From assembly GCA_034190875.2 (NCBI GenBank), contig CM067344.1, forward strand, positions 68,473,527 through 68,537,526: 64,000 bases of DNA, read 5' to 3'. Made by a program: the position numbers and the translations under genes. The notes beneath the pieces are model-generated. The model worked only from the letters and a program-made list of their open reading frames with translations. It was not told the DNA's origin and did no database searches. This document shows, piece by piece, positions 17,516 through 23,500 of the stretch (positions are counted from its first letter, which is position 1; each line of letters starts with the position of its first letter). This DNA comes from Urechis unicinctus (taxonomy: Eukaryota > Annelida > Polychaeta > Xenopneusta > Urechidae).

Positions 17516-20500
17516 TTAAACACAGTCCTCCTGAGACATCAGCAGAGGATTGACATACTCAAAACCCTCAAATTCTGTCTGGTCAATCTTATTGATGAGT
17601 TTCCTGTGGACAAAAGGGCAAAATTATTTGTCAGTATATATTGTACAAGAACTACAACTGCAATTGGATGTATCAATACAAGCTTGATTGAAGTAATGCC
17701 AGTAAGCACGCCTGCTTCCTCCTCTCCCATCAATCACTTGATTTTGAATACAACTAGATTGTATCAGATCAAATTTAACTTTCTGAGGTTACAACATTTA
17801 CTGGTACCTGTCTCCCTCATGTTGTTATCAGTGAGGGTGGAAAGTTGGCTGATCATGATGGATTAAAGAGTGACTTAGGCATGGATTATCAGCCTAGTTC
17901 CATATGGTAATGTGAGGTCAAATGCCAGAGTCACATGGCTTGAGCATTGAAAACTTGAACATTGAGGAAGATTGTGTAATTATTGTGTGCATTGCATTAT
18001 TGTCAGTTCCACATGGTTAGTGGATGCTTGTGGAGACATGGATTGATTCAGTAATTCACTAAGTGTGGGAGGGAAGAATAAAGTGCACTTTTTCCACATG
18101 AACCAGCTTCACTGTACTGCCTAGCTGCTTATCAAGTTAAATAACCTGTATTCATTTTAATGACATGTTACATTGTTATTGTTGAAACATAAGCTTATAA
18201 TATAATATATAAACAAAGCAAAGGGTATTCAGGGTAGGTTTCAAATGAGAATTGCACTACATACGGATCATCTGGGGTGAGAACCACCGGCTCAGTAGTA
18301 AACTGGGGGTCGAAATGTTCCAGGTCACTATCGGATTTGACTGGAGGTCTATAAGGAGGCATGATCTGCCGGCCGAGAAGCATGTCCCAGGTTATGGTGC
18401 GATAGAAGGGGTGACTCTGGATGTCTTCAAACCCTGTCTGTGGATGACAGCCCAACCTCTCCTTCTGATTCTGTTCACGCAAGGGAAACAAAGCTCCAAT
18501 AAAGCTTATGTTTTTTTGGCATAAACAAAACAAGTAAAAATTCTTGGCTTTATTGTCCTTCATCATTTCAGATCATACAGTGTTGACAGAAGAAATATCC
18601 AATTCTTGTAACATCTGAGGTCATGAACCAGAGGCAGGCCTAGATTAGCAGGATGGGACTGGACGAAATGAAGCAAGGCATGTTGTTCTCATGCACTACC
18701 CACAATGCTACATCCTACATAGCAAACCGACCTTATCACTCAGGTCAAATTCAACAAATCAAACATGCTGACAATTTTAGCAAGAAAGTTATTGAGAAGA
18801 CTTTCCACTTTTGTTTTCACATTACTGGAAATAATACTAGGAGACAAGAAAGAACAGTAACTAACCTTGTTGAGGAATCCTTTGAGCACACTGCCTGCCT
18901 TAACAGATAACGACCGTGGTATCCGAATGGGCTTCTCCAAGATCACTTTGATGAGACACAAATCATACCTCAATTTGTACCACTCACACTAAACATGATC
19001 TGCAAAAACCTATATTATCCTCAGTAAGTTTATTGTTTACCATTTAACTATCATAAGTTAAACAAGTATTTAAGATGAGGATTTCTGGCTAAAAAGGTTA
19101 TCAGCCATCTGGTCGGAAGTTAAACAGGTCATTGGCAGGTCAACATTTACTTCACTGCCACTGGTGGGGTTTGGGTGGGTGGGGATGGTATAATCATGGA
19201 TACCTTGGAATAAGTAGTCTTCCGTGTTCTGGTCAGGGTTGTCAGTTTGTCCAACGATATCAAAAGGCGAGCGTCCAGCCAGCATTTCAAAGAGAAGCAC
19301 CCCCAGGGCCCACCAGTCTACGCTGTAATCTGGCACAACATATACCAATACCATGAGCCGCTAGGGATGGCGGCATTGATTTCCTCACCAGTCAATATTA
19401 ATCAGTTATTTTGTCATTACAGTATTTCGGTTCTATCTTAAACACAATGGTGATGAGAATTTTTAAAAAATAACAATAATAAATACAAGTGGTAAATAAG
19501 GTACCAAACACATGAATATGCTTACACAATAAATTTACATTATCAACGTTAAGAAGGCATGTTGGTCATCATAGCGGGGACTATTGTAAGTTGGGATTGT
19601 AGATAATGTGCAACTGTTCATGACATGCCAGGCAAACAGTATTAACATGTTCACACATAGGAAATATCACAATGGACGAAATATATATATTTGCTTAAAC
19701 ACATACATCAAGACCATGGCAGGTAACTGACAAACATGATAGGCAACATAATGCAATGAATAGGAAGCTACCGGAGAACAATGGCTGTACAGCGTCATGA
19801 ACAAGGCTCATAAAGAGATCGGTTAGTTTTGATGAAAAGAGCAGTTGTTAAGATGACTGTTAATGGCTCCTAACCAAGCCAGACAAGAAATTTAGCAACA
19901 GTGAGACTGGGGTAAACACAGGCACAGTGCTACAGTCATGCCCTGATGGTGATACCATATTCCTCGGCTCGTAGGATCTCAGGTGCTATGTAGTTGGGGG
20001 TGCCACAGAAAGTGTTGGTCTTCTCTCCTTCTTTCAACCCTTCCTATAGAATGCAAAGGTCAGAAATGTATAGAAGACTGCAGGTGTGGAATTATGAAGG
20101 GTCATGATGGAGGTCACCATGATGCATGAGGGTGTGATGGTAGTGTATCCTCTCTGGAAGAAATGGTCAAGCCAGCCTGCTGTAATCATCCACCTTAGTA
20201 AGTAAAAAGACTGAACCTGAATAGGTGGTGAGAGTTGAAAATGGGGTGTGAGGCTGCCACAGCCAGCCTAATATTATCCTTCCCTTGCTGAAAGAGAGAT
20301 ATACATACATCACCTTCATGCTAAAAGAGAGATAAAAATCAGTTGTTGAGCAAATTGTTTTGTGGGTGCTAGTTGTGTAATCCTCTGTGTATGTGGTTAT
20401 AAGGGTTATGCCTCAATGAAAGAAAGCTGGAGCATCTGTAATTGATGGAAAGGGTCAGTGGGTGAAATTAAGCAGGAGGCATTTGTTGACTGAAGCTTCT

Positions 20501-23500
20501 CCACCGACAGTTTGAAGCACCACTTCCTGTGTGAAATTGATACAAGCAAGTGAGCAGTGGTGGGAAGTGAGTGGTGTAGGGGGAGGGAGTGATGGGAAAT
20601 GAGTGGTGAAGTGGGAGGGAGTGGTGGGAAGTGAGTGGTGAATTGGGAGGGAGTGGTGGGAAGTGAGTGGTGAAGTGGGAGGGAGTGGTTAAGTGGGAGG
20701 GAGTGATGGGAAGTAAGTGGTGAAGTGGGAGGGAGTGTTGGAAAGTGAGTGGTGAAGTGGGAGGGAGTGGTGGGAAGTGAGTGGTTAAGTGGGAGGAAGT
20801 GGTGGGAAGTGAGTGGTTAAGTGGGAGGGAGTGGTGGGAAGTGAGTGGTTAAGTGGGAGGGAGTGATGGGAAGTGAGTGGTGTAGGGGGAGGGAGTGATG
20901 GGAAGTGAGTGGTGAAGGGGGAGGGAGTGGTGGGAAGTGAGTGGTTAAGTGGGAGGGAGTGATGGGAAGTGAGTGGTGAAGGGGGAGGGAGTAAGAGAGC
21001 CTACCATAGTCTTCTCCTCTCAGCATCTCAGGAGCTATGTAGTTAGGGGTTCCACAGAATGTGCTTGTAGTGTCTCCAGGTCGCAGTCCCTCCTGTGTAC
21101 CATGCCATGCCACACACACACACACACACACATGCCACGCCAAGCAATGAGCCAATAGACACACTACAAGAACAAATAATGGCATCTTCAAACTCATGAG
21201 AAATCCAATGGCTCCTTTCACCAATAACTCAACAAAGTGAGAAATCAGTCAGGTTATTGGACCATTCAAGGTTCATTAATTCACACAGAACAAAAATACT
21301 AAGAACTATAGCATCTATTGTCATTGTAAATCTGTGGCACGCTATAATCAATAAATCGTTCAACACAAGATCAATAAACCAACTTAAGCTTAATTCATGT
21401 ATTAAACTATTGTTTGCTCATGCCACATAAAAGTGAAATGGTTCAACTCATATCACTATTATTAATTTTTCATCAAATGGTGTTTGAATTGGAGGAACTG
21501 CATGCAGGTAGGGCAAAGACGGATGACAAAGTCAAGTTGATCAAGTTGAGATATGGATGGGATATATAGAACTCAAATGAAGGTTCTTTGTATCCATTAT
21601 ACTGATGTATATAAGAGAAAATAGTCTCATGTGAACTGTACATGATTGGATGAACAAAGGTCTCACTTTGCACATGCCATAGTCTGTGAGTTTGATGTGT
21701 CCTTCTGAGTCGAGGAGAACATTGTCAAGCTTCAAATCCCTGTACACAATTCCTGGAGACACGCACGGCAAGATCATGGCATATTGCAGTTTTCAACACA
21801 AAACAGGAGAAGTGGAATACTCATGGGAAATACAGGTTTGGAGAATTTGCATGCCAGTCATTGTACTAATCCAAACTGGTAAAACAATCTGAACAAAACA
21901 CATGCAGAGAACACAATCCCTTAAGTGACTCTCACTCTCGACAATAAATGCTGCTAGCTGTAAAGAGGCTAACCCTTTTCATGTAGGAAGTTGAGTGCCA
22001 GACAGATTTCAGCGGAGTAAAAGCGGGCGTGTTCCTCGGGCAGGCGACGCTGTCTCTGCATGTGGAACATGAGGTCGCCGCCGTTCACAAACTCAATGAC
22101 AAAGAAAAGCCTGCACTCAAAACAAAGCCAACAGTGGCAGTCAAAATAAGGTCAAGGTTATGTGGATTCAATCCTGCTGTAGTTGATTTCAACTGAAAAC
22201 TCTATATTGGAGTTCAGTTCATGCCAGAGAAAGGCTGCCAATTGATCGAGGCATACTAAGTGTCTGCTTATGCCTCATTCAGGGCATACTAAGTGTCTGC
22301 TTATGCCTCATTCAGGGATTCACTTTCCCAATAGAGCTAAAGTGAACCAAATTTAGTTTAGAAATTCATTATTTTGTACAGCAAATATTTGCAATACCAA
22401 TAAAAGCACATTATATCAGTTCAACTAACTGTGCACCCCTTCACAGCTCATACAACTCTGGGCTTACCACTTTTCAAGAAACCTGGGATAGATTTGCAAG
22501 GACCTTTCCACACAATAATCCAAGAGACCATATTCATTTCATTCATTTAGATGTATAGGGGTTTAATCAACACAACAGGACTAGCAAGGTTGAGGTGACA
22601 AGTGACACATAAGTGATCAGAGAGGGGGTCTCTACTAGACAGGGGGATAAGCTCGTCCAGGGCTTTAGAAAACTCTGCAGAGTAAACAGCCAGAACGGAC
22701 GAACAGAAGAGAAAGTACGAGCAATCGCTAACACAGCAGTTCCTAGCTGACTGGGAAGAGGAGTTCAAGTGGGTTGAGGCCAATGATGAGGTTCACTGAC
22801 CACTGTGTAGTATTATTTCTTAAATTACTATTTTTTTAAGTAACTAGCAGGTTGGTAGCTCTGTGGTTATTTCTTAATAATCTGCATCTTATTTTTTGGC
22901 GCTGTTAAAAAAAACTAGGTCAATTGGTTATGATCCATGTAGCAAAATTCATCAGCATTTGATGCATTTATCAATGTTTATTGGGGCCAGTGGATTTTAG
23001 ATTCAGGCCAGTGATTCAGGCTGCTAATTGGCCTGACTGGGCTGGTTATATTTTATCAAACTTGTCGAGCCCGGAGTTCCCACCGTAACTTTTAAAAAAA
23101 AATAATTTCCTCAAACCAAAAATTATCAACTCGGCTATGAGTTAAGTGAATTTGTGGAATGACCAGTTATTGAGTTCTTTACAAGAACGACAAATAATTA
23201 CTGCCTCTAAGTGTCGCTATTGCTTCCATCTTCAAAACAAATATGAATCATCTTTCTCTTTCTTCAGCAAATGACCACTGAGCATGAGATAAAAGGCAGG
23301 GTTGAAGTGTTGATGATTGTGACTACTTCATCCAGGTCATATTGAGCCAGGGAGGATGAGGGTGTCAGCGATGAGGGTGTCGGTATTGTCTTGCTATTCC
23401 TTGCTTTTCATTTTAAATGTTGAAGACGAGTCAAAAACTATCAGGGCTGACATGCCTAGCTTCAATAACAAGGAATTCATTCAGATTATTAGTCGGCAAC

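Follow-up and report, generated by a model that had tools for sequence, protein, structure and literature searches.

A probable pair of mutually exclusive activation-segment exons in the atypical protein kinase C gene of Urechis unicinctus

The window analysed here, 64,000 nucleotides (nt) of the annelid Urechis unicinctus (contig CM067344.1 of assembly GCA_034190875.2, positions 68,473,527 to 68,537,526), contains a gene for atypical protein kinase C (aPKC) in which the exon for the kinase activation segment is present twice. From the genome sequence, the two copies, referred to as A and B, very likely descend from an old tandem duplication and form a mutually exclusive pair of coding exons that yields two isoforms. 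The animal thus probably makes two versions of aPKC from one gene. The gene and the exons concerned are as follows, with a slash marking the splice point here and below.

17516..34273, minus strand: aPKC gene, located by tblastn and exon joining, with 16 exons identified including A and B
21667..21752, minus strand: constitutive exon upstream of A and B, last exon base 21667, phase-0 donor AAA/GTGAGA
21005..21092, minus strand: exon A, the canonical activation segment, 88 nt
19956..20043, minus strand: exon B, the alternative activation segment, 88 nt
19204..19329, minus strand: constitutive exon downstream of A and B, first exon base 19329, phase-1 acceptor

Both copies are 88 nt long, run from phase 0 to phase 1 and consist of 29 codons followed by a G. 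A sequence-only reading of this DNA had placed them on the minus strand at 21092-21005 and 20043-19956, as the same segment with the same length and phase, between a phase-0 donor at 21667 and a phase-1 acceptor at 19329, and all of these positions are exact to the base. The splice sites that it described as intact are present as AG acceptors and GT donors. Exon A has the acceptor GTACACAG/GAGGGA and the donor ACTATG/GTAGGC, and exon B has the acceptor TTCTATAG/GAAGGG and the donor AATATG/GTATCA. The intron separating A from B is 961 nt, with GT-AG sites.

The exclusivity of the copies is backed by the reading frame, which behaves as had been proposed. With A alone or B alone the frame is open through both neighbours. 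When both are included there is a frameshift and a stop 63 nt into B, with the last exon junction 435 nt further on, and when neither is included a stop follows after three codons. Since both of these products carry a premature stop, they would be expected to trigger mRNA decay.

The two copies align over 76 nt with 79% identity (E 5e-15), and any other match between them, with 300 nt of intron included on each side, has an E value of at least 0.7. It follows from the lack of similarity in the flanks that the duplication is old. Of the 88 nt, 24 differ, 15 of these at third positions, and the 19 changed codons comprise 11 that are synonymous and 8 that change the amino acid. The synonymous rate (dS) is 1.67 and the nonsynonymous rate (dN) 0.18, giving a dN/dS of 0.105, which is approximate because dS is near saturation. 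When 24 random substitutions were placed on A in 100,000 trials, 8 or fewer residue changes resulted in 0.017% and a stop in 54%. In a fairer simulation, A was allowed almost only synonymous change and B was neutral, with runs having 23-25 differences being retained. Among the 1,607 accepted runs, 8 or fewer residue changes were seen in 0.37% (P 0.0037) and a stop in 51%. Six omega values were tried for B, the best fit being 0.2, with 0.5 also compatible (12% of accepted runs). The substitutions bear the mark of purifying selection on B as well. There are strong grounds for reading B as coding, and very probably selection maintains it as such. Coding constraint on B, together with copies that the frame makes exclusive, fits mutually exclusive splicing.

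The gene is an aPKC. The hallmarks of this class are PB1, a pseudosubstrate, a single C1, a kinase with a TFCGTPNY loop and a C-tail whose hydrophobic motif carries a Glu (FEGFEY). All are present, with PB1, the pseudosubstrate, C1, the kinase domain and the C-tail encoded in that order on one strand. The exon count excludes the hinge exon or exons between 29647 and 23970, and all of the identified exons, including the C1a exon with its donor AGG/GTGAGA, are bounded by AG and GT. In a tblastn comparison of human PRKCI with the window, residues 401-431 are the sole part with two full exon copies, the remaining overlaps being read-through at exon edges or matches with E above 0.9. The ten best matches in a PDB search with the segment containing B are all PKC-iota chains (E 3e-73 to 1e-72).

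The genome has 17 chromosomes and 1.19 Gb, its 17 large contigs totalling 1.168 Gb, and GC averages 40% over 18 sampled stretches. Searches for COX1, for an egg lysin and for a molluscan haemocyanin gave no match, although for the latter two the controls were without a match as well, which makes those absences uninformative. Only 4 of 148 genome matches have at least 80% identity and all are within this gene; a genome search that scored the best candidates thus revealed no second gene for aPKC. Eight further AGC kinases encoded in the genome, presumably PKN, two novel PKCs, a conventional PKC, SGK, RSK, S6K and AKT, have one activation-loop copy each within the approximately 3.1-3.2 kb inspected per locus. 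Another paralog as the source of B was considered and rejected; none was found in the genome search, and B retains an Asn after TFCGTP that is absent from all eight of the other AGC loops.

Exon A is identical to human PRKCI 402-430 at 28 of 29 residues. In PKC-iota numbering, B differs from A by R405K, P406E, D408E, T409K, S411N, M424I, G427A and D429E; at residue 424 it is B rather than A that matches human. The sequence-only reading had counted the same 8 of 29 differences, most of them just before the activation-loop Thr, and five of the eight do lie within 405-411, the seven residues preceding it. This is the Thr phosphorylated by PDK1, T412 in PKC-iota. Exon B retains this Thr within TFCGTP, its APE motif is intact, and the P+1/APE stretch of 12 residues is identical in A and B. 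The Pfam Pkinase score is 228.1 bits for the spliced B isoform and 224.6 bits for the A isoform, and for the bare 29-mers it is 24.2 and 20.9, respectively. Both isoforms should be active kinases that are primed by PDK1.

The suggestion that the loops differ in charge is not borne out for net charge, which is 0 for both 405-411 segments and -3 for both 29-mers. Within 405-411 there are 2 charged residues in A and 4 in B, and B is without Pro406 and has two fewer hydroxyls. The residues K405, E406, E408 and K409 of B are each found at the same place in at least one of the eight other AGC kinases of the genome, and N411 is absent at this place from all eight. With the P+1/APE stretch identical, an effect on the phospho-Thr or on coupling to alpha-C is more likely than a changed substrate consensus. 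The swap would most likely act upon priming, dephosphorylation or the grip of inhibitors.

Three further features close to the pair may bear upon its splicing.

21111..21132, minus strand: (UG)11 run, in the sense strand 19-40 nt before exon A, where a pyrimidine tract is expected
20556..20992, minus strand: 32-nt minisatellite in the A-B intron, pyrimidine-rich in the sense strand, beginning 12 nt past the end of exon A
21060..21174, minus strand: possible 15-of-17 stem around the A acceptor, pairing exon A 21060-21076 with intron 21158-21174

Splice donors were scored using human frequencies, giving 6.44 for A and 2.16 for B against a range of 1.06 to 11.0 for 12 constitutive donors, with C1a left out; the B donor scores above two of these (1.06 and 1.48). 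The acceptors show the reverse order, the pyrimidine fraction at B (0.75) being the highest of 15, tied with the last exon, and that at A (0.40) being tied for the lowest. The first 30 nt are 83% purine in B and 63% in A, and the start of B recalls purine-rich splicing enhancers.

UG repeats bind CELF or TDP-43 proteins, and the (UG)11 before A, one of two TG/CA runs of at least 16 nt in the window, is a possible site. A gene that is probably TDP-43 (TARDBP)-like, with RRM-like exons and a Gly-rich tail, is present at 51580-48820 of the window on the minus strand, the same strand as aPKC. Its presence in the same window as the UG repeat is probably a coincidence. A long simple-sequence array at 58931-59745, which is open in all three minus-strand frames, includes (TG)27 on the plus strand at 59163-59216. 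The minisatellite covers 437 of the 961 nt of the A-B intron. It has extreme strand asymmetry, with a GC skew of approximately 0.9 over 20500-20999, and is likely to be length-polymorphic. Elsewhere in an aPKC intron, at 22250-22317, a 33-nt unit is found twice with 100% matches.

The arm identity of the stem at exon A was reached in 0 of 60 shuffles of the region, and its folding energy is ordinary (z -0.77, equalled by 44 of 200 shuffles); it is a weak lead rather than a result. A search for inverted repeats gave 8 pairs, this stem among them; in another, which touches the B acceptor, 19752-19767 is 81% complementary to 20040-20055. Steric or U2/U12 exclusion is an improbable basis for the choice. 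At 961 nt the intron exceeds what steric exclusion would allow, and with GT-AG sites the choice would fall to trans factors or RNA structure. Docking-selector pairing between introns found no convincing support, the whole-intron hybrids for three intron pairs being equalled by 34, 10 and 4 of 40 shuffles.

The explanation favoured here is that the activation-segment exon was duplicated in tandem and that its two copies are now coding exons used in a mutually exclusive way. A single pre-mRNA would then be spliced in vivo as ...DYGMCK-[A or B]-DYSVDWW..., and the outcome would be two full-length aPKCs 8 residues apart, with products including both or neither being lost to decay through their premature stops. 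The likely cis features are, at A, the UG repeat that stands where the polypyrimidine tract would be, and at B the good acceptor, the purine-rich 5' end and the weak donor. The swap may tune phospho-Thr412 and the nearby alpha-C region, altering the rate of priming or dephosphorylation and the grip of Par3-type inhibitory arms. There is a good case for predicting isoforms that are regulated, mutually exclusive and functionally distinct. Much more tentatively, the pair could be a regulated loop switch on the Par-complex kinase, the canonical loop serving epithelial polarity and the B loop, in some particular tissue (for example the nervous system), altering how phospho-Thr412 is handled and how sensitive the kinase is to inhibition of the Par3 type, with the choice made by UG-repeat-binding factors and an exon-intron hairpin at A.

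Several observations weigh against a regulated coding pair. The estimate of constraint comes from one pair of 29-codon exons in one species, with dS near saturation. The B donor, ATG/GTATCA, is weak. The equal net charge of A and B leaves a functional difference unproven. The fold around exon B is weaker than in shuffles (-73.8 against a mean of -80.2), and in the crude whole-intron test no convincing docking pair was found.

It is unlikely that B is mainly a poison exon, spliced behind A so that the frameshift leads to mRNA decay and tunes the amount of aPKC without a second protein being made. The position of the stop in the product with both exons would suit such a role, and the length of the A-B intron would permit its splicing. 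However, B has kept, at a dN/dS of 0.105 and with no stop, the frame that it has when spliced alone, and an exon that acts as poison would have no need to conserve kinase code. The weak donor of B and its 8 residue changes might instead be those of a silent relic of the duplication that has lost its splicing. This is very unlikely, as neutral decay would rarely stop at so few residue changes (the P of 0.0037 above) and about half of neutral copies would be expected to carry a stop; B also has its acceptor and length intact. An assembly or haplotype artefact is extremely improbable. Assembly errors can occur at sites such as the minisatellite between the copies. However, near identity would be expected of an allelic copy, and here 24 of 88 nt are different and the flanking introns have no similarity.

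Tandem mutually exclusive exons are an already known kind of arrangement, as in PRKCB, JNK and FYN. The aPKC pair resembles other tandem duplicated exon substitution events in having adjacent homologous exons and conservative substitutions, and such events are mostly ancient. The human PRKCB event concerns the C-terminus and not the PDK1-site activation segment. JNK is a MAP kinase in which the part exchanged follows the TPY activation loop; in aPKC the exon exchanged carries the priming Thr itself. JNK1 and JNK2 have a mutually exclusive swap in the kinase domain between exons 6a and 6b (also 7a and 7b), which does not change the size and appears to affect kinase activity (PMC8746764). PRKCB, Pkc53E and pkc-2 are among the families annotated with tandem duplicated exon events in three phyla, and unrelated events of this kind often arise in orthologous genes (PMC9741552). 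These are a PKC-family case, but of a different class from aPKC, which is not named in the available main text of the section on multi-phylum families (PMC9741552). FYN B and T are tissue-specific isoforms from tandem duplicated exons with altered binding (PMC9741552), but FYN is a tyrosine kinase, and the part that it exchanges is the SH2-kinase linker plus the beginning of the kinase domain, ATP site included, rather than the activation segment.

Diversity of aPKC from one gene is seen in vertebrate PRKCZ, where PKM-zeta, without the regulatory domain, comes from an alternative transcription start (PMC7104321), and in Aplysia, where the PKM form of PKC Apl III arises by cleavage (PMC7104321, PMC3517905). 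In the parts of these two papers available, a swap of the activation loop is not described for either. A second aPKC transcript has been recorded in Carcinus and in Cherax, in part of a survey of crustacean PKCs (PMC12608923), and there may be an arthropod counterpart of the exon pair. In one open-access library, no paper joins 'atypical protein kinase C' with 'mutually exclusive exons', and among the matches listed an activation-loop exon pair in aPKC is not described in titles or the openings of abstracts. Nothing there contradicts the sequence-only reading, which knew of no such pair in vertebrate PRKCI or PRKCZ; annotated isoforms of such a pair may already exist in sequence databases. A search of contigs for relatives gave 66 loci, all bacterial and at most 62% identical, and one of viral contigs gave 5 pattern matches and no relative; these collections are not animal genomes and have no bearing on conservation among animals.

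The kinase of the Par polarity complex is aPKC, and where an animal has one gene for it, it is generally regarded as a single enzyme. If the pair is as proposed, splicing would tune the activity or inhibition of aPKC by exchanging, under protection of the frame, the very loop on which the priming phosphorylation is placed. The exchange would provide a natural pair of loops, 8 residues apart, for studying the role of the residues that precede T412. Phospho-antibodies to the loop and constructs of a single isoform could miss one form of aPKC in such animals. Should the switch be regulated, a lineage with a single aPKC gene would gain by splicing part of the diversity that vertebrates have in PRKCI, PRKCZ and PKM-zeta.

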